From Prauserella salsuginis (GTDB taxonomy: Bacteria > Actinomycetota > Actinomycetes > Mycobacteriales > Pseudonocardiaceae): DNA of 64,000 bases. The DNA is taken from NCBI RefSeq assembly GCF_024648885.1, contig NZ_JANBBF010000010.1:248001-312000 (forward strand), written 5' to 3'. Under the pieces are notes generated by a model. It made no database searches. It saw only the letters and a list, made by a program, of their open reading frames with translations, and had not been told where the DNA came from. Positions 16,426 to 31,631 of this stretch are shown here, in pieces. How positions within the stretch are numbered: the stretch's first letter is position 1; the number at the start of each line of letters is the position of its first letter. The position numbers and the translations under genes are program-made.

Positions 16426-16976
16426 CACGACCCCCTTGCGAGTGCGGCTGAGTGAATTGCCATCAGCACGCCACACCGAGGGCCTCACACCCGTGTCGTC
16501 GCCGCCTCAACACCGCCTCACCAGCGCGACAACACCGCCTCACACCGCCCGACGACCACGGGACAGGCGGACCCCGCCGACCACGTGAATCACACTGCTG
16601 ACACGCCCCGCATCAACGCTGTGACCTGCTGACTCGCCGTTGGCGACGACGAGCGTGAATGCGGCTGCCGCAGCCACGAAAAGGGCCGGCGCCGTGCTGC
16701 CGAAAGCCGGGGAAATCACCTCTTCCAAGGTCTGTGCTGCGGCGCACCCGTGAGCCGAGGTGCAGGCACGTGCAGCAAGCGGGAGGGCAGCGGAACGGTT
16801 CGCTCCGCGCGCGGCGCGGCGGGTGCGCGGGACGGCGTCTCGGGCGGGTGTGGACGGCGCGTCATTTCACGCTGAGACGTGTCGCAAATCCGGGTCGTGA
16901 TGAGTATTGCCTGACGACAGCGCCCCAGCCGGTTCCGTTATCGCCAGCTCAGTCCGGCCCTCTGGGAGGAGCACTC
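16426..16976. promoter_or_regulatory. Divergent promoter region of the element
   Basis: 550 bases without a convincing gene, between the minus-strand transfer operon and the plus-strand methyltransferase-like genes. It should hold both promoters. A phased direct repeat (16508-16543) is its clearest structure. A 62-codon minus frame (16540-16728) with a hydrophobic stretch is open but has no support from spacing or ribosome site. An origin of transfer could lie here, but no nic consensus was recognised. Confidence 0.5.
16508..16543. repeat. Two 14-bp direct repeats at 22-bp spacing
   Basis: CAACACCGCCTCAC occurs at 16508-16521 and again at 16530-16543, exactly 22 bases apart, about two helical turns. 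A partial third copy (CACCGCC) follows. Phased repeats of this kind are typical of binding sites for a regulator, partition or relaxosome protein. The position in the divergent promoter region supports that; the binding protein is unknown. Confidence 0.55.
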
Positions 16977-18029
16977 ATGGCCCCATCCTCGTCGTCGCAC
17001 GCCGATGGTCACCGACGTCGCAACAATGCCCCCACCTCGTCGCGTTCGTCCCGTGTCGAGACACGCCCGGCATACCCAGGAGCCACCCCGCGTTCCCGCC
17101 CAAGCACACCCCGCAGCACCGCCGGCACGCGCCCGAAAACCCCGGCCGCGCCGCGCCAGCACACCACCGGTGCCCCGGCGACACCGACACCGGCCACCGT
17201 GTGGACCTGCGGACCCGAACCCGTCGATGCACGCGCGCCCTGGCCCACACCCATCGTGGAAACCCTCGTTGCCGCGTTCACCGACCCCGGCGCACACGTC
17301 ACGCTGCTCACCCCGGACCCGGTTGGCACCCGCACCGACGCCCCCTCCGCCGATGTGGGTGAGACCGACGGGCAACCGGAGTGCGGTGTGGTCGACGTGG
17401 TGCGCGCGTTGAACCGCAGCGCCGACGTCTCGACCCTCATCCCGCATGCGTCCAGCGAGTCGGGCGGCGCCCGTCCGTTCTGGGCGAGCCTGCCCACCAG
17501 CCACGCCAACCCCGCCGCAGCGCTGGCCGCTACCGCACCCACCCACGGCCTCACAGATTCCGGCGGTACGCGCCGTCCGGCCCGCGCCGACCTCGTCCTC
17601 GCCTCGCTGCCCGCCCACGCGACGGACACGCTGCCGCTGGACCGCATCGCCCATGCCACGGCCACGCAGCTACACGCCGGAGGAATTTTCGCCGTCTACA
17701 CCCACAGCGATACCCACCGCGGACGACTGGTCGACCCGACCGGGGACATCGTGGCGGCCTGTCAACACGCCGACCTGCTCTACCTCCAGCACATCGTCGC
17801 CCTCCACACCCCGATCCGCGCCGGCCATCTCCACTCCGACCCGAGCCCCGCCCACACCACCGAACACGACCGCGCCCGCCACCACTCCCACGCGCGCGGA
17901 CTGCCCGCGCCACACCTCCGCGTCCACAGCGACATCCTCGTGTTCGCGCAACCATCCGGAACAGACACCTCGTCGCCCGACACCGGCGCGACCGATCCCA
18001 CCACGGTCGCAAGCGGCGAAGGTTCGTGA
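16977..18029 (+). CDS. Methyltransferase-fold protein lacking a recognisable catalytic motif
   Basis: 350 residues from an ATG behind GGGAGGA. The first 75 residues are Ser/Thr/Pro/Arg-rich and disordered. From about 80 onward the order of elements (TVWTCGPEP, IVETLVAAFTDPGAHVTLLTPDP, ADLVLASLPAH, LHAGGIFAVYTHS) resembles a class I Rossmann methyltransferase. However, where a DNA methyltransferase would have NPPY or SPPY this protein has ASLP, so it may be inactive or act on another substrate. It is followed 71 bases later by an apparently active DNA methyltransferase. Inference: a non-catalytic partner of that enzyme. Confidence in the fold is moderate. Confidence 0.5.
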   Translation: MAPSSSSHADGHRRRNNAPTSSRSSRVETRPAYPGATPRSRPSTPRSTAGTRPKTPAAPRQHTTGAPATPTPATVWTCGPEPVDARAPWPTPIVETLVAAFTDPGAHVTLLTPDPVGTRTDAPSADVGETDGQPECGVVDVVRALNRSADVSTLIPHASSESGGARPFWASLPTSHANPAAALAATAPTHGLTDSGGTRRPARADLVLASLPAHATDTLPLDRIAHATATQLHAGGIFAVYTHSDTHRGRLVDPTGDIVAACQHADLLYLQHIVALHTPIRAGHLHSDPSPAHTTEHDRARHHSHARGLPAPHLRVHSDILVFAQPSGTDTSSPDTGATDPTTVASGEGS

Positions 18030-18100
18030 ACCGCGCCTGCGTCGCCGCCCTGAACTGGCTACCCACCCGTTGACCGGACCCGTGAAAGGTGCCTGCCGCC

Positions 18101-19126
18101 ATGACCCCACAGCCGCCGAACGAACGCGCCCAGACCAGCGATGCGCACACCGACGAGGCGACCATGCCGATCCCACGCACCCTCAACGACACGCTCGACG
18201 CCAACCCCGCCGACGACAATGCACCCGGCGCAGCTGAGCTGCCCGTGTCCGTGTGGACGACCGCGCAAACCTCGCCGGCGAACCAGCGGAAAGGCCGCTA
18301 CGTGGCCGGAACCACGGCACACCCTGCCAAGATGCTTCCCGCCGTCGCCGCCCACGCCATCGAGCACTACACCCGTCCGGGCGAGATCGTGTTCGACCCC
18401 ATGGCTGGAGCCGGCACCACCCTCGTCGAAGCCCTCCACGCCGGACGGCGCGCCCTCGCCGTCGAATACGAACCCCACTGGGCCGCCATCGCCCAAGCCA
18501 ACCTCGAACTCGCCCGCGAACGCGGACACAACGCCGACGCTCAGGTGGTACACGGCGACGCCCGTCAACTCCCGCACCTGCTGCCCGAGGAGTATCACGG
18601 GCAAGCTGCCCTCGTCGTCACCTCACCGCCCTACGGGCCCTCCACCCACGGCCGCGTCGCGACCGCGAGCACCGACTCGGCCGACGGAAAAGTCCACAAG
18701 TACTACCACCGCTACGGCAACACCCTCGACCGTGGAAACCTCGCCAACGTCGGACACCACCGACTCCTGTCCGGCTTCACACGCATCCTGGCCGGAGCCG
18801 CGACGATCCTGCGTCCAGGAGGGCACGTCGCCATCACCGTGCGCCCCTGGCGCGAGCATGCCGAACTGATCGACCTGCCGTCACAAATCATCGCCTGCGG
18901 ACACGCCGCCGGACTCGAACCCGTCGAACGGTGCGTCGCGCTCCTTGCCCGCGTCGCCAACGACACGCTCATCGCCCGGGGCAGCTTCTTCCAACGTGAC
19001 TTCATCCGCAAACAACGCGAACAGGGGTTGCCACTGCATCTGATTTCGCACGAGGACGTGATCGTCCTGGCCAAGCCCCCTCGTGCCCCGCAGCACGTCG
19101 CTCAACGAGGCGGGGCCGAAGAGTAG
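18101..19126 (+). CDS. DNA (N4-cytosine or N6-adenine) methyltransferase
   Basis: 341 residues; the ATG fits AAAGG eleven bases upstream better than the GTG that overlaps it. The SAM-binding motif is DPMAGAGTT (about 106-114) and the catalytic motif VTSPPYG (about 175-181) lies after it. That order is that of alpha/gamma-type or TRM11-like methyltransferases, not the beta class common in restriction systems. RPGGHVAITV is a typical late strand. No restriction endonuclease gene is adjacent, so it looks like an orphan methylase, probably protecting the element from host restriction or marking its DNA. A TRM11-like RNA methyltransferase is a less likely alternative. Confidence 0.75.
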   Translation: MTPQPPNERAQTSDAHTDEATMPIPRTLNDTLDANPADDNAPGAAELPVSVWTTAQTSPANQRKGRYVAGTTAHPAKMLPAVAAHAIEHYTRPGEIVFDPMAGAGTTLVEALHAGRRALAVEYEPHWAAIAQANLELARERGHNADAQVVHGDARQLPHLLPEEYHGQAALVVTSPPYGPSTHGRVATASTDSADGKVHKYYHRYGNTLDRGNLANVGHHRLLSGFTRILAGAATILRPGGHVAITVRPWREHAELIDLPSQIIACGHAAGLEPVERCVALLARVANDTLIARGSFFQRDFIRKQREQGLPLHLISHEDVIVLAKPPRAPQHVAQRGGAEE

Positions 19127-19762: not shown

Positions 19763-19846
19763 CGCTTGCCCTCTGCGGCTACTGGAGCGTCCATGGTTCC
19801 TGTCCGAACCCGACAGCCGCGGATTGCGGGAAAGGAAAGATCCCCG

Positions 19847-21313
19847 ATGGCATTCAAAGGCGCCACGTACAAGCGCTGCAGCTGCACCCAGCCCGGCACC
19901 AAGAAGCAACTCGGCTCCCAATGCCCCAAACTTAAACGCAGCAACGGAATGTGGAGCTCGAACCACGGAACTTGGTCGTATCAAGCCGAACTTCCCAAGA
20001 ATCACGACGGGACCCGCCGCACCCGCAGGCGGCACGGATTCGCCTCACAGACCGACGCGCAGGACCAGCTGGACAAGATCGCCGACCTGGTCGCAGTCGG
20101 TGAACGACGCGGCGACACCGCGCTCGCCGCCATCGGCGACCTCATCGACAACCGGCTGCGCACCGGAGAACCGTTCCCCACACCTGACGAGGTCGAGAAG
20201 CAGCTGGACGAGGGAAATGCCAGCCTCGGAGCCATGCCCACCGTCGGCGAATGGCTGACCAGCTGGATCACCACCCGCAAGAAGATCCGGGAAGGCACCC
20301 GGATCGCCTATCAGTTCCACATAACCAACTGGCTGACGCCGCACCTGGGCCACTATCGGCTCGACGTCCTCACCGTCGACCACATCTCCGGCATGTTCGA
20401 CGCGATGGCCGAACGCAACGACACCATCACCGCCGCCAACGACAGCGACGACCCCGAGGTCCGCAAGAGCGTGCACGGCCTGCGGATCATCAGCGCGGCC
20501 ACCATGCAGCGCTACCGCGCCACCCTGCGCGCCGCGCTCAACGCCGCCATCCGCGCCCAGAAGATCACCTTCAACCCGGCCGCCTACGTCGAGCTACCCT
20601 CCGGGCGCCGCCCGAAGGCTCTGTTGTGGACACCCGACCGGGTCGAACGCTGGCAGCGCACCGGACATAAGCCCTCGCGAGTCATGGTGTGGACACCCGA
20701 GCAGATCGGAAAATTCCTCGATCAGGCCGAAGGTCACCCCTACTATGCGCTGTTCCATCTCATCGCATACCGGGGTCTGCGGCGCGGTGAAGCCTGCGGC
20801 CTGCCATGGTGGAACGTCGACCTGGTCAGCCGGTCGATCACCATCTCCACCGCGATCGTACAACTCGGGTGGAGGGCCGAGTTCGGTGAACCCAAGAGCG
20901 AAGCCTCCGGCCGCATCGTCGCCCTCGACGAGGCCACCACCCTGGTGCTGCGGCGGCAGAAGAATCACCAGAACGAACAGCGCGTGGCAGCCGGGACCGA
21001 CTGGGTCGAACAAGAGCTGGTGTGCACCGAACGCGACGGTGGCCCTCTGCACCCGGCCAAGCTCACCGATGCCTTCCACGCCATCGCCGACGCCGCCGAG
21101 CTGCCGCCGGTCCGGTTGCATGACCTGCGCCACGGCGCCGCCACCCTCATGCTTGCCGCCGGAGCGGACCTGAAAGTCGTGCAGGAACTGCTCGGCCACT
21201 CCACCATCGCGGTCACCGCGGACACCTACGCCCACGTCCTGCCCGAACTGGCCCGCGAGACCGCCGAAGCCGCTGCATCCATCGTCCCGCGCAACCGTCC
21301 CACCGCCGCCTGA
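19847..21313 (+). CDS. int: Tyrosine-type site-specific integrase
   Basis: 488 residues from an ATG behind GGAAAGGAAAG. A Cys-containing N-terminal arm-binding part (YKRCSCTQPGTKKQ) is followed by a SAM-like core-binding domain (about 130-250, TVGEWLTSWITTRKKI). The catalytic domain has YRGLRRGEACGL with Arg near 309, LHDLRHG near 424-429, LGHSTIAVTADTYAH with the probable nucleophile Tyr near 461. All catalytic residues appear present. Length and domain order match integrases of actinomycete ICEs that use tRNA genes. Its att site is not immediately downstream; the nearest tRNA-like sequence is 10 kb away at 31591. Confidence 0.92.
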   Translation: MAFKGATYKRCSCTQPGTKKQLGSQCPKLKRSNGMWSSNHGTWSYQAELPKNHDGTRRTRRRHGFASQTDAQDQLDKIADLVAVGERRGDTALAAIGDLIDNRLRTGEPFPTPDEVEKQLDEGNASLGAMPTVGEWLTSWITTRKKIREGTRIAYQFHITNWLTPHLGHYRLDVLTVDHISGMFDAMAERNDTITAANDSDDPEVRKSVHGLRIISAATMQRYRATLRAALNAAIRAQKITFNPAAYVELPSGRRPKALLWTPDRVERWQRTGHKPSRVMVWTPEQIGKFLDQAEGHPYYALFHLIAYRGLRRGEACGLPWWNVDLVSRSITISTAIVQLGWRAEFGEPKSEASGRIVALDEATTLVLRRQKNHQNEQRVAAGTDWVEQELVCTERDGGPLHPAKLTDAFHAIADAAELPPVRLHDLRHGAATLMLAAGADLKVVQELLGHSTIAVTADTYAHVLPELARETAEAAASIVPRNRPTAA

Positions 21314-22454: not shown

Positions 22455-25400
22455 ATGGCCCAGGAGGTTCCGTCGTGGCTGCGCCGATGGATGGTGGGCG
22501 GCGGGGTGGGCACGCACGGGCTGCGAGAGGTTCTGCGTCGGTTGGAGGCTCAAGAGCTCACGCCGAAGGACATCCGTGCGCTTCTCTTGGTACGTCTGGA
22601 CGGGCCGGACGGGGACGGGATTCGGCAGCGTGTTCTGGAACATTTGCAGGCTCGACCGCACGTGGCTGTCAGCGTCCTGTCTGTGCATGCCCAAATGGCC
22701 GGGCTGCCTGTTCCGACAGTAGATCCTGAACCGATCAACGGTCGTGGCGGCCTCGCGTTCCGCGGACAGGCGGTTCTCGAACTTGAGGACGGGTCGATAT
22801 CCGGAGAGACGTGCGTGGCGACGTCGAAGTCCGCCGTCCGTCACGCGGCGAGTTTGAGTCTGCTGAACCGGTTGGTCGACGGCAGGCTGATCTTGAACGA
22901 AGACACAACCGTCGCTGGGGAAGGGATCCTGGAACCAGGGGAGCCCGTGGCGGCACCTGGTGGTGGGGAATCGTCATGCCACTGGTCGTCGATGACCCCG
23001 CATGAGTTCCTCGGCGCGCTGACTGAGTGCGCCCGCCTTCCCAACCCCGATCCGCAGTTGGTGGGCCACACGCTGCAGCGGGCCCGGGCGGGCCTGTTGG
23101 ACGACAAACAGCTGGCGGTGGTGTTGTTTCGGGCACGCTCGGCAGCATGGGACGAGGTTCGGCGTGAGGGAGTGCACGCGGCAACCCGGATCCCGGTGAT
23201 GCTGCCGTATGTGCTCAACCAGTACGCCGCGTTGACCGGGGTGTCGACCGGCCAGTACGGCGAGGGCATTGGGCCGGACGGTACGAAATGGGCTTCCTTC
23301 CGCATTATCGTCGACGGGCGAATGCGCACGTTCGGTCCGTGCTATGCACCGGGCAAGGCAGCACGACAGGCAGTGCGCCTGGAAGCCGTTTCTGAACTTG
23401 CAGGCCTGGATCCGTCCGCCGGGTGGCCGGACACTGCGGTCGGCGACAGCGAATGGCTGGCCGTAACGGGAGCTGCGACGGCCATCTCGGTGCTGGACGT
23501 CGCGAGGTCGCGGGGGTGGATCAGTTCTCCGCAGTGGCGCGACGGCAAGGCTACCGCCGGAATATCGCAAGCGTGGGTGTCCTGTCAGCACGACGGCGAC
23601 ACGGTCGGCGCGACGGCCAAAGGCGGAAACCGGAAGCAGGCCCGCCAAGCCGCGGCAGGAGCGCTTATCTTGCTCCTCAATGAGCGTGCCCGCCCCGCAA
23701 CCGCGGTCCCAGCGATTGCCGTTCCCTCTTCGAACAAGGGTACTGAACCCGTTGCGGAGCCGGACTCAACGAGCGTTTCACCGCTAGCAACCGTCCCGGC
23801 CGCGCCGGAGCCTCGCGCCCCGCAGCCCTCGTCCGAGTCCGCATCGTCGACCGAGCCGCCCTCGGCTCCCGAGCGACCAGCCGTTGTCGGCACCTCGGCA
23901 ACCCGGGACAGACTGCCGAGCCTTGACCGTGACACGCTCATGACCGAGCTCGACGACGGCGCGTACTTCGTCTTCGACACAACCGTTCCGACTGTGGAGG
24001 CGGGCCTGCTGTGCGCGTTGTCCGACCATGTCCAGGCTGCGCCGGAGACAACAGTGCGTCGCATCCTCGTCGGTCGGCAGGGCGAATCGTTCAGTTTTCG
24101 ATGCGGGCGGATCAGCACCGGTGACGCCATCGCGTTGCTGGCCGGACCAGCACGCGAGCGATGGCACGACTCTGCGCGCGTGTGGACGCGCGTCATTCAC
24201 CTGGCGTTGGACGCGATCGCGCGCCACGGGATCGCGCCGGCGTTGGCCGACACGAACCGGCGGGGGGCCCGCTATCCGACCTGGCGCGTCGGGGCGTTCG
24301 ATGCCGACCAGGCCGAACTGGTGAACCAGCTCGCCGGGCAACTCGAGGATTCGCCGTACATCCTCGGGGACTGGGCGCGCGGCGAGAACGTGCGGGAGTC
24401 GGTCGACCTGGTCCGGGCTGTGCGAGGCATGATCGACGCGGTCGCCGACTACCTGGTGAGTTCGTCCGGGCGTGGCCATCTGCACGGACCGGTCCCGTTC
24501 ACCGGTGCCGCCTACGTGTACGACGCGGACCGCATCAGCACCGTGCAGCGGTGGGTCGACGACGCGGCCGATTCCGACGACCTCGACTCCGAGGCGCCGT
24601 CGCTTCAGCTGACCGTCCTGCCGCCCCGTCCGGACACCGCTGTGCTGGAGGCGACCTTGCAGCTGTGTCGGGTCCCGGGCAGCGCCGACACTGCCGTTGA
24701 CGCCGATGAGGTGTGGTGGGACGGCACAGTTCTTGCCCGTTTCCCCAACGGTCCCGACTTGCGCGAGCGCGTGCGCAGACGTCTGCGGCTGGCAGGACGG
24801 ACGCTGCCGTCGCTGGAGGCGCTGGGCGCGGACCCGTATCCGGCACGCTGCTGGCTCAGCGCCGCAGACGCCGCCTTGTTGCGGGGCAGCGCGGCAGACA
24901 CCTTGACCGGCTTGGGGGTCGAGGTGGTCTGGGACAAGGACTGGGCCGACGCACTCTCCGTCGAAGCCGTCATTGAACCAGCGGAGTCGACCAGTCCGCT
25001 GACTGGGCGTCTCGGGTTGGGCGAGCTGTTCGACCGACGGTGGCGCATCACCGCCGATGGCCAGATCCTTAACCCCGCCGAGCTGGACCAGCTTCGCCGG
25101 GCCGAACTTCCGTGGATCATGCGGAGGAACCGCTGGGTCATGATCGATGACAAGACGCAGGAATGCCTGCGCCAGCCCAAAGCGACCACCATTCCCCGGG
25201 CGCAGGCTATGCTCGACGTGTTCGACGGCTGGGTGACGATCAACGGGCGAGCCTACGCGTGCACTCCCGCCGACGGGCTCGCAGCGCTCATCGGGGACCT
25301 GCGCTCCACCGACTACGCCGAGGCCGTCCGGCAGGTCAGCACGGAATGTTCGATGACCCTGATGCCGCACCAGGCTCGCGCCGTGGCCTGGATGCTCCGA

Positions 25401-26789
25401 ATGAGCCAGGCCGGTTTCGGATGTCTACTCGCCGACGACATGGGCCTGGGCAAGACTATCTCGGCGCTGGCGTTCCACCAGTCACCACGACGTACCGGCG
25501 CGAACCGGCCCACCCTGGTGATCTGTCCCAGCGGCAAGCTGATCGGCCAGTGGGAGCGCGACGCAGCCCGGTTCGCCGGACTGCCCGTCATCAGGTACTG
25601 GAAGCAGAAACGCTCCCTTGCCGGGCTGACCCCGGCCACGGTTGTGGTGACCACCTACCCGACTCTCCAAAGCAGCATCGACGAACTCAGCGCCGTCGAG
25701 TGGGGATTGGTGGTCGCGGACGAAGCCCAGCGGACCAAGAACGGCGCCACCGGCGCGGCCCGGTGGATCCGTGCGCTTCCCTCCGCCATGCGCGTCGCTC
25801 TGACCGGGACGCCCTATGAGAACCAGGCCGGCGAGCTCCGGACCATCCTGGATTGGTGCAACCCCGGGCTGTTCGGGACACCGGCCGAGTTCACCGCCCA
25901 GTTCGTGCGCCCGATCACCGATGCCGCCGATGAGCGCCAAGCGGCGTGGGCACATCAGCGGATCCAGCGAATCCTGCGTCCGTTCATCCTGCGCAGGCTC
26001 AAAGACGATCCGGCGCTCGGGATGAACCTGCCGGGAAAGCACGAGACCACACACCTCGTCCACCTCTCCGACCGCCAGCGAGGCATGCTCGAAGCGCTGA
26101 CTGCCGACGATGTCGAGCAGATCACACGCAACCCGAATAGTCCGGCTGTAGGCCAGCTCGCCAAGAAGGTGATCCACGACCAACGCAAGATCACCAACAG
26201 CCCAGCCCAATACGACGACCTGCCCGTGGAAGAACTGGGCCTGCCTCCGCACGAACTAGAGGACAGTACCCCGAAACTGACCGTCCTGCGCCGACTGGTC
26301 GAACGCCTGCGCGGCACCGGCGAGCGGGCCCTCGTGTTCACCCACTACGTCTACGCCGCGAAGATGGTGCACTACTTCCTGACCAGGCTGGGATACACGA
26401 GCTCGCTCTACATTGGCGACGTCGGCGAATCCGACCGCGAGGACCGTATCGAGGCCTTTACCTCCGGCGGCACTCAGATCTTGGTCGCGACCGTCACCAC
26501 CGGCGGCGTCGGCCTCGACCTGCACTGCGCCAACCACGTGATCCACTTCGAGCGGCACTGGAACCCCGCTGTCGAAGCACAGGCCACCGACCGGGCCTAC
26601 CGCATCGGCCAGACCCGAATCGTCAACGTCGACTACCTCGTGACTCGCAACAGCATCGAAGACCGGATCTCCGCACTGCTGGCCGCCAAACGCGACCTGA
26701 GTAATCTGTATCTGCCAGGCGGAGAATTCGACTTCACCAAGCTGACCGCCGCTGAACTCGTGCACCTCGTCAAACTCAGGACATCATGA
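22455..26789 (+). CDS. SNF2-family helicase with three tandem dsRBD-like domains
   Basis: 1444 residues. The ATG at 22455 follows GGGGGAATCAGG; the frame is open for another 730 bases upstream, but that part lacks structured protein and overlaps the decayed gene. Three segments match the double-stranded RNA-binding pattern of a first helix, three strands and a Lys/Ala-rich last helix: about 73-142 (ends TSKSAVRHAASLSLLNRL), 250-318 (ends GKAARQAVRLEAVSEL) and 341-415 (ends GNRKQARQAAAGALILLL). A linker and an unassigned region (about 480-850) follow. Then comes a DUF3670-like segment (GLGELFDRRWRITADGQI, WVMIDD) and an SNF2 motor: DDMGLGKT 994-1001, DEAQ 1089-1092, QATDRAYRIGQ 1376-1386. The fusion is unusual. 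The dsRBD assignment is from pattern only. Inferred role: nucleic-acid sensing and translocation, probably defence. Confidence 0.8.
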   Translation: MAQEVPSWLRRWMVGGGVGTHGLREVLRRLEAQELTPKDIRALLLVRLDGPDGDGIRQRVLEHLQARPHVAVSVLSVHAQMAGLPVPTVDPEPINGRGGLAFRGQAVLELEDGSISGETCVATSKSAVRHAASLSLLNRLVDGRLILNEDTTVAGEGILEPGEPVAAPGGGESSCHWSSMTPHEFLGALTECARLPNPDPQLVGHTLQRARAGLLDDKQLAVVLFRARSAAWDEVRREGVHAATRIPVMLPYVLNQYAALTGVSTGQYGEGIGPDGTKWASFRIIVDGRMRTFGPCYAPGKAARQAVRLEAVSELAGLDPSAGWPDTAVGDSEWLAVTGAATAISVLDVARSRGWISSPQWRDGKATAGISQAWVSCQHDGDTVGATAKGGNRKQARQAAAGALILLLNERARPATAVPAIAVPSSNKGTEPVAEPDSTSVSPLATVPAAPEPRAPQPSSESASSTEPPSAPERPAVVGTSATRDRLPSLDRDTLMTELDDGAYFVFDTTVPTVEAGLLCALSDHVQAAPETTVRRILVGRQGESFSFRCGRISTGDAIALLAGPARERWHDSARVWTRVIHLALDAIARHGIAPALADTNRRGARYPTWRVGAFDADQAELVNQLAGQLEDSPYILGDWARGENVRESVDLVRAVRGMIDAVADYLVSSSGRGHLHGPVPFTGAAYVYDADRISTVQRWVDDAADSDDLDSEAPSLQLTVLPPRPDTAVLEATLQLCRVPGSADTAVDADEVWWDGTVLARFPNGPDLRERVRRRLRLAGRTLPSLEALGADPYPARCWLSAADAALLRGSAADTLTGLGVEVVWDKDWADALSVEAVIEPAESTSPLTGRLGLGELFDRRWRITADGQILNPAELDQLRRAELPWIMRRNRWVMIDDKTQECLRQPKATTIPRAQAMLDVFDGWVTINGRAYACTPADGLAALIGDLRSTDYAEAVRQVSTECSMTLMPHQARAVAWMLRMSQAGFGCLLADDMGLGKTISALAFHQSPRRTGANRPTLVICPSGKLIGQWERDAARFAGLPVIRYWKQKRSLAGLTPATVVVTTYPTLQSSIDELSAVEWGLVVADEAQRTKNGATGAARWIRALPSAMRVALTGTPYENQAGELRTILDWCNPGLFGTPAEFTAQFVRPITDAADERQAAWAHQRIQRILRPFILRRLKDDPALGMNLPGKHETTHLVHLSDRQRGMLEALTADDVEQITRNPNSPAVGQLAKKVIHDQRKITNSPAQYDDLPVEELGLPPHELEDSTPKLTVLRRLVERLRGTGERALVFTHYVYAAKMVHYFLTRLGYTSSLYIGDVGESDREDRIEAFTSGGTQILVATVTTGGVGLDLHCANHVIHFERHWNPAVEAQATDRAYRIGQTRIVNVDYLVTRNSIEDRISALLAAKRDLSNLYLPGGEFDFTKLTAAELVHLVKLRTS

Positions 26790-27379
26790 CCGCCAGCGCA
26801 ACCGGCGGAGGCGAACGGATCCCCTTCGCCGACCGTGACTTACCCGAGACACCCGCGGGGATCCTCCCAGCCCAGGTTCTCGCTGAGATCGCAGCCGATG
26901 CCGCGCGCCGTGCCGCCGCATTGCTGGATGGACGCAACGCAGCTCTCCACGACGATGACGTCGTCGACCTGATCCGGCTGGTCCAGGTAACACAGTGCGA
27001 TGCCGCCACGGCAGCGGCAGCCGCCGAACGAGCAGGGCTGAGCAACGCTGCATTCAGCCGATTACGCGTGGCCTACACATTCGCAGGACTGGAGGGCGTC
27101 CACACCGCGCACCGTGCTCACGACCCGGACCCAGGCGTGATGTACGCGGCGATCGAAACCATCTGCAGCCACCACCACGTTCCCGAAGACGCGCTCACCG
27201 TAGATCAGAACCGCATCACCGTGTCCACACTCGGAATCCAGATCCGGCTCAGCATAGGCGCAACGTGGTTCCCGTATAGCTCATCCGGGCAAGGATGGGC
27301 ACCAGCGCGCGGACAGTCCTCCAGCCCGGCGGCCGCGTACAGTGCAGCCGTACAAGCCCGCCGGGCTCGCCATCGATAG
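26786..27379 (+). CDS. Unrecognised 197-residue protein coupled to the SNF2 gene
   Basis: The start ATG overlaps the SNF2 stop in an ATGA, a classic sign of translational coupling, so the two proteins are likely made in a fixed ratio and may form a complex. Residues 28-90 are helical and Ala-rich (AEIAADAARRAAALLDGRN, CDAATAAAAAERAGLSNAAFSRLRVAY), with a helix-turn-helix-like feel. The middle has ICSHHHVPED. The C-terminal part is Gly/Ser/Ala-rich. No catalytic motif, signal or membrane segment is visible. I do not recognise a family. A role as adaptor or regulator of the helicase is inference from coupling only. Confidence 0.7.
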   Translation: MTASATGGGERIPFADRDLPETPAGILPAQVLAEIAADAARRAAALLDGRNAALHDDDVVDLIRLVQVTQCDAATAAAAAERAGLSNAAFSRLRVAYTFAGLEGVHTAHRAHDPDPGVMYAAIETICSHHHVPEDALTVDQNRITVSTLGIQIRLSIGATWFPYSSSGQGWAPARGQSSSPAAAYSAAVQARRARHR

Positions 27380-27685
27380 GGCGGGAAGATGCCCACGGAC
27401 AGGCCGGTCCATGGCCGGTTCCACTGCGCACTTCGTCGCCACGAACAGCCCGCAGCTCCATAGACAGGTCCCTGCCGCGAGCGGTGCTTCCAGCGTTGGT
27501 GCTGGTCGTGAAGTTGGCTTGAACGGTGCCGAGGCCCACCCAGGCTGTAGCGCCTCGGGTCGTTATTTGCGACTTCTGTTGATCTCGTGGTGGCCCCGTT
27601 ACGCATTGGCCCGGTACCGGCTGTTTGGTCGGCCGGGAGCGCTATGGTCGAATACAGTGCTTGCTCACGGAGGGGAGGTGAGAAC
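27380..27685. other. Leader region of the ietAS-like pair
   Basis: About 300 bases without a supported gene between two cargo modules. A frame continuous with the ATPase gene is open from 27587, but the GTG at 27686 has the near-perfect ribosome site GGGGAGGTGAG. The region probably carries the promoter of the pair; no certain -10/-35 pair was recognised. Confidence 0.4.
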
Positions 27686-28669
27686 GTGGCCACGGCTGAC
27701 CAGGTAAAAGCCATGGTGAAGAGCCATGCGGAGGGAGACGACTCCCGCTTCTACTCCGTGGCCCTACAGGTCGCTGCAGGTGCGGCGCGGCAAGGACAGA
27801 ACCGGTTCGCCCAGGATCTGCGAGACCTTGTCGACACGCTGCAGACACAGCAAGGCCGCAACTCGACGGCGACGCGTCCGGTCCCGGTGGTCCAGCCGCG
27901 CGGCGAACTGGCACAGCTGCTGACGGTCACCTACCCGCAGAACCTCCTCGCCGACCTCGCGCTCGACGAGAGCGTTCGGCAACGCCTCGCACGCGTGTTG
28001 CAGGAACAACGACAAAGTGACCGGCTCCAGTCGCACGGCTTCGAACCTCTGCGGCAGTTGCTGCTCACCGGTCCCCCAGGCACCGGCAAGACCATGTCGG
28101 CACACGTACTGGCCGGCGAGCTGCGGCTTCCCCTTTTCATGATCCGACTCGACGGGCTCATTACCAAGTTCATGGGGGAGACGGCAGCGAAGCTGCGGCT
28201 GATCTTCGACGCGTTGTCGGAGACCCGCGGCGTCTACTTGTTCGACGAGGTCGACGCCCTTGCAGGTGACCGCACTGCTAGCAACGACGTCGGCGAGATT
28301 CGGCGGGTGCTGAACTCGTTCCTGCAGTTCCTCGAGATAGACAACTCGGACAGCCTGCTGGTGGCCACGACTAACCATCCGCAATTGCTAGACCGGGCGA
28401 TGTTCCGTCGGTTCGACGCGGTGATCGACTATCCGCTGCCCGCCGGTGAGGTCGTGCGTGACGTGATCCGGACCCGGTTGTCCAACGTTCCGACCGCTCG
28501 GCTGACCTGGTCGAAGGTAGACGCGGCTGCCGACGGTCTCAGCCACGGCGAGATCACCATCGCCGCGGATCTGGCGGCCAAGGAAGCGATCCTGGCTAGC
28601 GACGGCCGAGTCACCACGACCAGCCTCTGTGCGGCGCTGCAGGAGCGGCGCCAGCACATGCTCGACTGA
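27686..28669 (+). CDS. ietA: IetA-like AAA+ ATPase of an IetAS system
   Basis: 327 residues starting at a GTG after GGGGAGGTGAG. An N-terminal helical part (about 1-95) precedes a classic AAA module: Walker A GPPGTGKT near 129-136, Walker B YLFDEVDAL near 184-192, sensor ATTNHP and arginine-finger region DRAMFRRFD. It is followed 12 bases later by a subtilase gene. Established knowledge: an AAA ATPase (IetA) plus subtilisin-like protease (IetS) pair was first described as an incompatibility-exclusion, toxin-antitoxin-like locus on Agrobacterium plasmids. It was later reported as a phage-defence system. Gene order, sizes and motifs here fit. Whether it defends or stabilises this element is unknown. 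Confidence 0.85.
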   Translation: MATADQVKAMVKSHAEGDDSRFYSVALQVAAGAARQGQNRFAQDLRDLVDTLQTQQGRNSTATRPVPVVQPRGELAQLLTVTYPQNLLADLALDESVRQRLARVLQEQRQSDRLQSHGFEPLRQLLLTGPPGTGKTMSAHVLAGELRLPLFMIRLDGLITKFMGETAAKLRLIFDALSETRGVYLFDEVDALAGDRTASNDVGEIRRVLNSFLQFLEIDNSDSLLVATTNHPQLLDRAMFRRFDAVIDYPLPAGEVVRDVIRTRLSNVPTARLTWSKVDAAADGLSHGEITIAADLAAKEAILASDGRVTTTSLCAALQERRQHMLD

Positions 28670-28681
28670 TCCGCGGAAGCC

Positions 28682-31249
28682 ATGCCAGAACCTCGCGATC
28701 GTCCCCATCTGTTCATCCCGGTCTCAGCGCATGCCGCTGACTACTCACCCCCGCGGCGGGCGATCGGGGGGCAGGAAGTTCCCGTGCCAGCGGACCGGCG
28801 CCAACACGGCCAGCAGCTGCACGATGCCCTCCGCCAGGTCGACGCTGACGCGGAGGCACGACGGAGCCAGCGAGATGTGCAAGTCGAGGGTGCAGTCGAC
28901 GGCGTCTACGTCAGCTTCGAGAGTTTCCCCGGGGTGCACCTCGCGCTGGAGAGGCTCGACCCTCAGCAAGGCACCCTCCATCCGGAGCTGCGCGCGGTGC
29001 AGGAGGTCGACCTCGGCGACGGTGTCACCGTGGAACGAGCCACCGTGTTCGTGCCGCAGGGCAAGCTCACTCACTTCCTGGACCGGATCACACAATACGT
29101 CGAAACTGCAGACGCCGCGAGGCCCCGCAATCGGGAGCTCGTTGATCGTGTCCAGGCAGTGCGGGCGGCGTCGATCGAGGCGTTGTGGACCGATCCGCCG
29201 GCTGAGTTCCCGGAGCCGGGGCAGCTGTTCTGGTGGGAGGCGTGGCTGCGGTGGCGCGACGGGAACGAGGTGAGCCGGTTTCGTACGTTCGCCTCTGCCA
29301 CCGGACTGCGCACAGGTTCTCGTGGCCTTGGGTTCGGGGACCGCACGGTGCTGCTGGTCGAAGCGACCGTCGACCAGCTCGCCTCGGCCGTTGACGTTCT
29401 CGACGATCTAGCCGAGCTGCGCCGGCCGCACGATCCGACACAGTTCCTGGCGGAAACGGACGCGATCGAGCAGGCCGCCTGGATCGACGACCTCGCGGAC
29501 AGGCTCGAGCCCGCCGATCCCGAGGCGCCGACGGTCTGTGTTATCGACAGCGGCGTCTACCAGGAACACCCCCTGCTGCAGGCGTCCCTTCCCCGAGAGG
29601 ACTGCCACGCCGCAGACCCATCGTGGCCGGTGTACGACGACCGGGGACACGGCACCGAGATGGCCGGCCTCGCCCTATACGGCGACCTTGGCCAGGCCCT
29701 AGCCTCACCGCAGCTGCTGCGGCTACGCCATCGGCTGGAGTCGGTCAAGCTGCTCCCACCGCTGCCGCAGCAGAACGCCCCCGATCTCTACGGTGCGGTC
29801 ACCGCCGCCGGAACGAGTCGTGCTGAGGTCCAGGCGCCGGATCGCCGCAGGGTCTACTCGCTCGCCGTGACGGCACCCGTGGCGACATCGACGAACGGTG
29901 CGGCAGCTCCGGCTGCGTCCGGGCAGCCGTCGTCCTGGTCGGCCAGCCTCGATGCGCTCGCCGCCGGTCGCAGCGTCCTCGCCAACGAGGATGGGCTGGT
30001 TTTTCTCGACGACGCCGACCACGCCGCGAAACGGTTGTTCATCGTGTCGGCGGGCAACGTGCGGTCCTGGTACCCCGGTGACGAGCACCTCGACCGCAGC
30101 GACCTCGAACCGGTGGAAGACCCTGCCCAGGCGTGGAACGTTCTCACCATCGGTGCGTACACCGAAATGGACACCATGACCGGCGCCGCGGCCGACTTCG
30201 CCGGCTGGACACCCTGGGCGCCGCGTGGCGAGCTGTCACCGTTCAGCCGTACTTCGGTCGCCTTCAGTCGAGTCTGGCCGATCAAACCAGACGTCGTACT
30301 CGAAGGCGGCAACGTGGCCCGCTCACCGGACGGCACCACGTTCGACACCCCGGCGAACCTACAGCTCCTGACCACCAACGCACCCCTCGGAACCACGCGA
30401 CTGCTGACCACGATCCACGCGACCAGCGCCGCCACCTCTCAGGCCGCGGCGCTGTCAGCGTCGGTGATGGCCGAGTACCCGGCACTGTGGCCGGAGACCG
30501 TGCGGGCGCTGATTGTGCACTCCGCCGAATGGACTCCCGCGATGAAAGCCCGATTCCAAGCCGAAAAGAAGAAGGCGCCCCGCATCGCCCTCCGCCGCCG
30601 CTACGGCATGGGCGTTCCCGACCTCGCCCGGGCCACCCGGAGCGCCACCGACGCATTGACGCTCATCGCGCAGGACACCATCCGTCCCTTCGCCGAGGGC
30701 ACCATGCGCGAGATCCACTACCACGATCTGCCGTGGCCCACCGGCGTCCTCGCAGACCTCGGCGAAGCGCAGGTCCGCCTGCGGGTCACCCTGTCGTACT
30801 TCATCGAACCCAACCCTGGGCGGCGCGGCTGGCAGCGTCGCTATAGCTACGCGTCCCACGGTCTTCGCTTCGACCTGCGTAGGGCCACCGAGTCCAAGGC
30901 CGAGTTCCAGAAGCGGATCAACGCGAAAGCCCTGGCCGAAGATGAGCTGCGAGCCACGTCCAGCAACGACACTGGCGAGTGGTTCTTCGGCCCTGATCAC
31001 CAGCGCGCACCGGGGTCCCTGCACACGGACATCTGGTTCGGTAGCGCCGCCGACCTCGCCCAGCGCGGCGCACTGGCCGTGTTCCCGGTGACCGGCTGGT
31101 GGAAGGAGAATAAGGCACGCGACCGCAGCGATGCTGGTGCTCGCTACGCCATGATCCTCTCGATCGAAACGCCGGACCTCGACGCCGACGTCTGGACACC
31201 TGTTGCACAGCAGATCAACGTTCCGTTGACTGTCACCACGGCAACGTGA
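28682..31249 (+). CDS. ietS: IetS-like subtilisin-family serine protease (S8)
   Basis: 855 residues, start 12 bases after the ATPase stop. An N-terminal domain of about 280 residues without a signal peptide suggests a cytoplasmic protease. The S8 triad is readable: Asp289 in VIDSG, His323 in RGHGTEMAGL and Ser582 in HATSAAT. The usual GTS is ATS here, seen in other IetS-type proteases as far as I recall. The insertion between His and Ser is long, and a C-terminal domain of about 200 residues includes a beta-rich part (AQVRLRVTLSYFIEPNPG). The partner ATPase directly upstream probably controls or feeds the protease. The substrate is unknown. All catalytic residues are intact, so it should be active. 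Confidence 0.85.
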   Translation: MPEPRDRPHLFIPVSAHAADYSPPRRAIGGQEVPVPADRRQHGQQLHDALRQVDADAEARRSQRDVQVEGAVDGVYVSFESFPGVHLALERLDPQQGTLHPELRAVQEVDLGDGVTVERATVFVPQGKLTHFLDRITQYVETADAARPRNRELVDRVQAVRAASIEALWTDPPAEFPEPGQLFWWEAWLRWRDGNEVSRFRTFASATGLRTGSRGLGFGDRTVLLVEATVDQLASAVDVLDDLAELRRPHDPTQFLAETDAIEQAAWIDDLADRLEPADPEAPTVCVIDSGVYQEHPLLQASLPREDCHAADPSWPVYDDRGHGTEMAGLALYGDLGQALASPQLLRLRHRLESVKLLPPLPQQNAPDLYGAVTAAGTSRAEVQAPDRRRVYSLAVTAPVATSTNGAAAPAASGQPSSWSASLDALAAGRSVLANEDGLVFLDDADHAAKRLFIVSAGNVRSWYPGDEHLDRSDLEPVEDPAQAWNVLTIGAYTEMDTMTGAAADFAGWTPWAPRGELSPFSRTSVAFSRVWPIKPDVVLEGGNVARSPDGTTFDTPANLQLLTTNAPLGTTRLLTTIHATSAATSQAAALSASVMAEYPALWPETVRALIVHSAEWTPAMKARFQAEKKKAPRIALRRRYGMGVPDLARATRSATDALTLIAQDTIRPFAEGTMREIHYHDLPWPTGVLADLGEAQVRLRVTLSYFIEPNPGRRGWQRRYSYASHGLRFDLRRATESKAEFQKRINAKALAEDELRATSSNDTGEWFFGPDHQRAPGSLHTDIWFGSAADLAQRGALAVFPVTGWWKENKARDRSDAGARYAMILSIETPDLDADVWTPVAQQINVPLTVTTAT

Positions 31250-31550: not shown

Positions 31551-31631
31551 GGGCCGCGCCACGTGACACTCATCGACACCACAAACTCGGGGATTAAAAG
31601 TCCACTGCTCTGCCAATTGAGCTAACGGCCC
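31551..31631 (-). tRNA. tRNA-Lys (UUU), intact 5' part with non-canonical 3' half; probable attachment site
   Basis: Reading the minus strand from 31631: acceptor strand GGGCCGT, D arm GCTC-AATTGGCA-GAGC, anticodon stem-loop GTGGA-CTTTTAA-TCCCC (anticodon TTT), with one mismatch in the anticodon stem. After about 31591 the sequence stops matching a tRNA. There is no TTCGA-type T loop, the total would be 81 nt, and only GCGGCCC at 31551-31557 could still pair with the acceptor. The simplest reading is that the element recombined in the anticodon region and the 3' half here is element DNA. Another tRNA-Lys copy must then serve AAA codons. Functional status is doubtful. Confidence 0.6.

Follow-up and report, generated by a model that had tools for sequence, protein, structure and literature searches.

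The gene pair

What does a bacterial mobile element do with a helicase that appears to carry double-stranded RNA-binding domains (dsRBDs), and what is the small protein encoded directly behind it? These questions are raised by two genes, P0001 and its downstream partner, in a 64,000 nt window (the whole stretch of DNA that was analysed) from the high-GC actinobacterium Prauserella salsuginis (assembly GCF_024648885.1, contig NZ_JANBBF010000010.1, positions 248,001–312,000 of the forward strand). P0001 and its partner are a mobile-element version of the actinobacterial SNF2/SWIM gene pair. Judged from sequence comparison it is a known pair with a new part, an array of dsRBDs on the N-terminus of the SNF2 protein, the novelty applying within the searches made. 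The start of P0001 at 22455 agrees with the BLAST alignments of three homologues, which begin at residue 1 and have a methionine there in each case, and the ATG of the partner at 26786 lies inside the stop of P0001, giving the ATGA overlap that had been described for the two genes in a first-pass annotation. The coordinates of all features are collected in Table 1.

The dsRBD array

The first-pass annotation had proposed three dsRBD-like domains in the large protein. When P0001 was modelled with AlphaFold (predicted local distance difference test, pLDDT, 78; three-sequence alignment) an alpha-beta-beta-beta-alpha arrangement was predicted in all three segments, with a few extra helices ahead of each of dsRBD 1 and dsRBD 2. 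A Foldseek search with the predicted fold gave entries of TRBP, Loqs-PB, R2D2, DRB4 and NF90 as the top seven matches and included some non-dsRBD proteins from rank 18 down.

With P0001 alone the Pfam model dsrm gave a sub-threshold match in domain 3 (residues 376–404, E 0.11, 13.6 bits compared to a gathering score of 23 bits), and when the whole genome was searched with dsrm the P0001 gene was not among the matches, which were confined to one other place. This was not taken as absence of dsRBDs because both the profiles of relatives and the predicted fold speak for such domains. Among the N-terminal modules of aligned homologues 11 out of 13 are matched by dsrm (E up to 1, best 5e-11). From segment 3 a profile (A5) was built without the RNB proteins described below; at E up to 1 it found 42 distinct sequences in the PDB, the best at 3e-8, and we take all the listed names to be dsRBD proteins. 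The profile of segment 1 (A6), whose sequences include an RNB protein and, from a relative, one segment of the second domain, gave nine PDB matches, the best being Loquacious (1e-4), covering the C-terminal part only. Segment 2 is the weakest by sequence; its profile alone matched Loquacious at 0.087, with an SDR (short-chain dehydrogenase/reductase) dehydrogenase second among 10 matches, and in hhalign it aligned with segment 1 at 1.7e-14. P0001 is thereby predicted, from the modelled fold and from profiles of its relatives, to carry three dsRBD folds.

Domains of this kind were recognised in P0001 and in 11 relatives (split genes counted once), with from one (Embleya) to four (S. vietnamensis) recognisable copies per array. 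The array served as query in finding ten of these 12 proteins; ITFR21 and Embleya alone came via the partner. The E-values of this comparison refer to a small sequence set in which most array proteins had also built the profiles; independent of profile building are Embleya (1.4e-8) and two RNB proteins compared to A5 (best 5e-15).

The same array of helical parts and dsRBDs, as seen with profiles A4 and A5, is fused to an RNB exoribonuclease in proteins encoded on Streptomyces plasmids (L008:6933-8759 and L014:6837-9278, the RNB domain being based on Pfam in the former and on annotation in the latter, with two of five RNB-annotated plasmid records examined). In these proteins the RNB domain stands in place of the SNF2 motor and the array is C-terminal. 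One of them, in L008, matches Pfam RNB at 7e-53 and dsrm at 1.7e-8, its array reaching 35.3 bits and thus exceeding the gathering score. The joining of the same array to RNB exoribonucleases speaks for a role connected with RNA. To our knowledge tandem dsRBD arrays of the TRBP/Loquacious type are mainly a eukaryotic theme; here bacterial mobile elements combine such a predicted array with a Swi2/Snf2 motor, and an RNA exonuclease carries the array as well.

A further actinobacterial dsRBD protein (L071:196-1791, L073:784-1824) consists of a Cys-rich part, a helix-turn-helix-like part (both seen by eye) and a C-terminal dsRBD, the latter matching dsrm at 3.7e-6 in the L071 protein.

The SNF2 motor

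Downstream of the array Pfam identified DUF3670 (residues 796–901), SNF2-rel_dom (972–1250) and Helicase_C (1274–1385), and the motor motifs are intact: DDMGLGKT with Lys1000 of Walker A, DEAQ at 1089, LTGTP at 1116 and RAYRIGQ at 1380. The first-pass annotation was thus right about an intact SNF2 motor with a DUF3670-like lead and about Lys1000 in its Walker A motif. It had also left 370 residues ahead of the motor unassigned, and this did not hold. NF058637, the model of the SCO1167/SCO6262 helicase, aligns from residue 551 to 1442 with positions 57–932 of its 932, that is with nearly the whole model, and BLAST matches with 12 relatives from other genomes start at residues 496 to 813 of P0001, so that the block is mostly the ordinary N-terminal part of this family. 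The NF058637 score of P0001 is 568 bits compared to a curated equivalog cut-off of 1200, and the motor is therefore regarded as a relative, not an equivalog, of the SCO1167/SCO6262 helicase. The best solved relative by sequence is 1z63 (1.6e-75), which we take to translocate on double-stranded DNA.

The motor also scores high with the PADLOC models of ZorD, DpdE and DrmD. The likeness to Zorya ZorD and to DpdE of Dpd lies in the SNF2 motor, whereas P0001 has dsRBDs in addition, and since the match is confined to the motor (residues 892–1438 in the matches shown) membership in the ZorD, DpdE or DrmD families was rejected. ZorA and ZorB were not among the PADLOC families shown, in a window scan that covered the pair and the two neighbouring Iet genes only and included no search for a full zor or dpd cluster. 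Neither P0001 nor its partner contains a nuclease or other effector domain above cut-off in Pfam or NCBIfam.

The partner and the SWIM family

The 197-residue partner had passed as an unknown protein. When comparing it with relatives it turned out to be recognisable as the C-terminal half of the SWIM zinc-finger protein whose gene immediately follows those of such helicases, without the finger. Seven relatives on Streptomycetaceae plasmids, 306–434 aa long, are each encoded immediately behind an array-SNF2 gene. Six of them can be aligned with the window partner in their C-terminal halves; the one from S. vietnamensis is cut short there. In the N-terminal half of six out of the seven a C-x-C...C-x-H motif is found. 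Pfam SWIM was above cut-off in all three genome partners tested and in none of the seven plasmid partners, and an alignment of plasmid with genome partners is collinear across 377 columns (E 1e-48). When the C-terminal half was used as a profile (A2), 33 out of 298 genomes of the order gave a match, including the window's own. Inspection of 29 further loci revealed in 28 a SWIM motif in the matching open reading frame (ORF) and, upstream in the same orientation, SNF2 motif VI, L030 being the sole locus that showed no SWIM motif.

In the window partner cysteines occur only at positions 71 and 127, which is why it is considered to lack the finger. Two other genomes have retained the short form (70% and 47% identity, with ATGA-type overlaps), and because of this it looks like a stable variant and not a broken gene. 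A protein that looked unknown can thereby be named, as a SWIM partner without finger, and its C-terminal domain is indicated as the part that stays with the motor. In a tree of the partners (28 of the 29 genome loci, L030 being left out as it shows no SWIM motif; S. vietnamensis partner omitted) those of the array helicases group together (98/97), with one long-branched genome row inside.

Four other matches of the partner were outweighed by the SWIM-family alignment and rejected: methylglyoxal synthase (NCBIfam, E 0.003), IS481 transposase (NCBIfam, 0.075) and Mg_chelatase_C (Pfam, 0.013), all below cut-off, and a weak PADLOC match to 'Effector 4TM' (E 0.013).

Distribution and pairing

Plasmids of Streptomycetaceae and genomes of the family to which the window belongs encode the array-SNF2 protein. 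The N-terminal module was found in four out of 200 genomes of that family, including the window's own, and at class level in five out of 394, the window's own over the whole model and the four others only in the last dsRBD. It was also present on 12 plasmid records, five of which are annotated as RNB ribonucleases; eight of the 12 loci were examined (H5, H6, H7, H9, H10, H11, H12, H16). Among four plasmid records with a partner match three loci were examined (H1, H3, H4), two with dsRBDs and one with a SWIM partner without dsRBD.

The association with the partner proved to be conserved: the partner gene adjoins the helicase gene in all 10 array-SNF2 loci where the downstream DNA could be read (the window, L017, L019/L052, L006, L007, L011, L012, L013, L015 and L016, L015 having been found via its partner). 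This count omits Embleya (L010), where the annotated partner starts 726 bp downstream, and L018/L051, where the contig ends inside the helicase gene. At two of the plasmid loci (L013 and L016) the helicase is divided between two overlapping ORFs. With the partner conserved and the dsRBD folds predicted, neither of the findings that the first-pass annotation had named as speaking against its proposal was made.

The array is found only in a subset of these SNF2/SWIM pairs. No dsRBD was seen in any of 12 other helicases of the pair, which come from 12 of the 33 partner-matching genomes and lie on contigs of 49,909 to 8,010,145 bases. With the dsRBD module and the partner as queries there was no match in 50,697 phage records, and a scan of viral contigs found no relative. 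A scan of genome contigs gave two relatives, the genomes G011 and G125, both in the earlier set; the Melainabacteria title of the first record is doubtful, a genome search placing it in the window's family.

Table 1. Features of the P0001 locus, main pair first (window positions; H, helix; E, strand)
Feature	Position	Strand	Basis
dsRBD-array SNF2 helicase (P0001), 1444 aa	22455..26789	+	ORF, Pfam, NF058637, motifs
Predicted dsRBD 1, residues ~68-142	22656..22880	+	AlphaFold H68-81, E92-96, E99-110, E113-122, H125-142; profile comparisons
Predicted dsRBD 2, residues ~249-315, weakest by sequence	23199..23399	+	AlphaFold H249-261, E267-272, E278-286, E289-298, H302-315
Predicted dsRBD 3, residues ~343-412, strongest by sequence	23481..23690	+	AlphaFold H343-352, E360-363, E370-379, E382-390, H393-412
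Region collinear with SCO1167/SCO6262 SNF2 family, residues 551-1442, including DUF3670 and two helicase lobes	24105..26780	+	NF058637, Pfam
Partner, 197 aa, C-terminal half of SWIM zinc-finger partner family without SWIM finger	26786..27379	+	Sequence comparison
Tyrosine integrase, presumably of the element	19766..21313	+	Pfam Phage_integrase 4e-23
IetA-like AAA ATPase, neighbour outside the pair	27587..28669	+	PADLOC IetA 1.1e-70; Pfam AAA
IetS-like subtilase, neighbour outside the pair	28682..31249	+	PADLOC IetS 5.9e-38; Pfam Peptidase_S8
Right end of element, 5' half of split host tRNA-Lys(TTT) gene	31584..31631	-	Comparison with genus relatives, ARAGORN

Relation to described systems

The closest described pair is the SCO1167/SCO6262 helicase with its downstream SWIM protein. 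The helicases are collinear, the C-terminal half of the partner is homologous and the adjacent downstream order is the same; the window pair differs by the N-terminal dsRBD array, present in none of the 12 genome helicases, and by a partner without SWIM finger. SWIM-associated SNF2 ATPases in mobile systems are already published (PMC5512222), and the terms dsRBD and double-stranded RNA do not occur in the main text of that paper. HelZ (Rv2101 and relatives) is described as a Snf2/Rad54 helicase with a zinc finger domain (PMC2587704). Likened by this description only, it resembles P0001 as an actinobacterial SNF2 helicase tied to a zinc finger and probably belongs to the same family, but the description given there does not mention a dsRBD. 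For bacterial HEPN-RNase III-dsRBD proteins the dsRBDs have been proposed to act on double-stranded RNA (PMC3710099); that fusion, as presented, contains no SNF2 part, and separate HEPN-SNF2 fusions are described in the same paper. No report of a dsRBD-SNF2 fusion was found in the open-access literature searched. Within these searches the earlier statement that such a fusion with such a partner is undescribed holds for the fusion; the motor and the partner belong to a known SNF2/SWIM pair.

Proposed function and alternatives

Taken as a whole, the best explanation of the pair, plausible though still tentative, is that the array tethers the SNF2 motor to RNA-marked DNA with the partner as adaptor. 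The dsRBD array would bind structured or double-stranded RNA, such as folded nascent or antisense transcripts, or sites of RNA-DNA hybrids, and the RNA-bound array would hold the motor, a putative double-stranded DNA translocase like its family, at the transcribed region. The tethered motor would then displace bound protein or transcription complexes, the conserved C-terminal domain of the partner presumably serving as its adaptor, and in the window's lineage the array would take over the target recognition that a SWIM finger would give. The element would most likely use the pair in conflict with other mobile DNA or for managing its own transcription, and the RNB fusions would be a degradative counterpart with the same RNA-recognition module. 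The pair may in this way connect the recognition of RNA with remodelling of DNA or with defence; should the array bind RNA, there would be a direct link in bacteria from RNA recognition to DNA remodelling. A wider version of this proposal is doubtful: an RNA-guided or RNA-triggered remodeller, in which the array recognises double-stranded RNA arising from mobile DNA (by convergent or antisense transcription, as phage double-stranded RNA or in R-loops) and brings in the translocase with its adaptor, by which that DNA is silenced or cleared, within a modular family that swaps the effector, SNF2 or RNB, on the same array.

Several points weigh against this best explanation. The GPxH loop is typical of dsRBDs that bind double-stranded RNA; it is missing in domains 1 and 3 of P0001 and reads GPDG in domain 2, so that the affinity of the array for double-stranded RNA may be weak or lost, and dsRBD folds can also serve as protein-protein modules. 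The substrate of the motor is inferred from its family, and in the helicase tree the motor of the window group sits on a long branch, for which reason its function may have shifted; this tree, which includes the same 28 genome loci as that of the partners, covers the last ~290 residues, contains long branches and leaves it undecided whether the array helicases are a single group. Replacement of the finger by the array could apply to the window's lineage alone, because six out of seven plasmid partners keep their motif. The fold prediction of the partner is poor (pLDDT 62, two sequences) and gave no PDB match at E <= 0.001. Finally, a pair on a 2.35-Mb Streptomyces replicon (L009:4192-8330), found with the partner as query, has a SWIM partner and no dsRBD match, from which it follows that plasmid location alone does not bring the array; both forms of the pair, with and without it, travel on large plasmids.

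A role in anti-phage or anti-plasmid defence is possible though rather unlikely. The dsRBDs would detect double-stranded RNA or R-loops of an invader, and motor and partner would block or dismantle its DNA or its transcription. IetA-like and IetS-like genes lie directly downstream of the pair, the PADLOC scores of the motor are high, the PD-Lambda-3_B model matches two of the 50 plasmid-locus neighbours that were scanned and a TIGR02391 gene is annotated near the pair at two loci. However, the IetAS adjacency was seen only in the window, the likeness to ZorD is generic for SNF2 motors, and the two proteins lack an effector or nuclease domain above cut-off, 'Effector 4TM' in the partner being weak. 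Defence families are also few near the plasmid loci: 50 of the 73 whole annotated neighbours (seven loci) were scanned, and at E up to 1e-5 seven PADLOC families came up, none of them in more than two proteins.

Element housekeeping, in which the pair adjusts how the element is transcribed, replicated or transferred, for instance by removing nucleoid proteins or RNA polymerase, and has no part in defence, is unlikely. It would fit the occurrence of the pair on conjugative-type elements and large plasmids, and the gene content of the element in the window: besides the integrase there are a gene with a TraG P-loop, one resembling TrwB and, below threshold, a match to TrbL. In genome G027, which has the relative closest to the window pair, the pair is located downstream of Lsr2 and a TrwB/TraG-like coupling gene (L017:15413-15808 and 16696-18675, minus strand), which suggests that this pair is also on an integrative conjugative element. 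A housekeeping function would be harder to reconcile with the few sampled genomes that carry an array pair and with a gene neighbourhood that varies between plasmids.

Quite unlikely is a reading in which the three dsRBD-fold domains leave RNA unbound and serve for dimerisation or protein-protein contacts; the changes in the GPxH loop and the weak second domain would speak for it. The start of the second helix keeps its basic residues in each domain (K125/R129, K301/R304 and R393/K394/R397), dsrm matches most modules of the homologues, and the module is joined to an RNA exonuclease domain as well, all of which argue against this reading. Very improbable, finally, is decay of the locus with the partner as remnant of a SWIM gene: the finger is missing, in S. 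vietnamensis the C-terminal domain is missing instead and two plasmid helicases are split, but the short partner persists with its overlaps in two other genomes and the helicase motifs are intact.

The mobile element

That the pair is on a mobile element next to an ietAS-like module, as the first-pass annotation had it, was confirmed; the split tRNA-Lys gene, the integrase and the matches of the two Iet genes are given in Table 1. Similarity to three genus relatives starts at window position 31584, inside the tRNA-Lys(TTT) gene, and the same gene is whole in one relative (L054, ARAGORN). The left end is placed solely by a 48-base match to the 3' half of the tRNA gene together with the core, at contig position 159317, from which the element may be ~120 kb. 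On that side synteny gives no confirmation, the 1.5 kb beside the tRNA in L054 having no match in the window's genome except tRNA pieces.

A tRNA gene that lies within the inferred element (L064:1506-1800, minus strand, ~172241-172535 of contig C3) has an insert of 219 bp in its anticodon loop. Its exons form a tRNA-Lys(UUU) if the insert ends in CAGG while ARAGORN calls it Arg. As the element seems to split the host tRNA-Lys(TTT) gene, it may carry an intron-bearing replacement tRNA. The insert matched Intron_gpI with 20.8 bits (E 0.003), below the cut-off of 50, in a narrow Rfam search, and a wider search gave no such match. Also inside the inferred element, at 173108-179020 of contig C3 (L066/L067), genes resembling type I restriction-modification (HsdM-like with a large neighbour) were seen by eye. 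Near the Crossiella copy of the pair there is an NYN-domain gene with an OST-HTH/LOTUS domain (L052:11963-12967, minus strand). The tRNA insert matches sequences on 1274 plasmid records, the 20 matches listed being ~73% alike over 79% of the insert.

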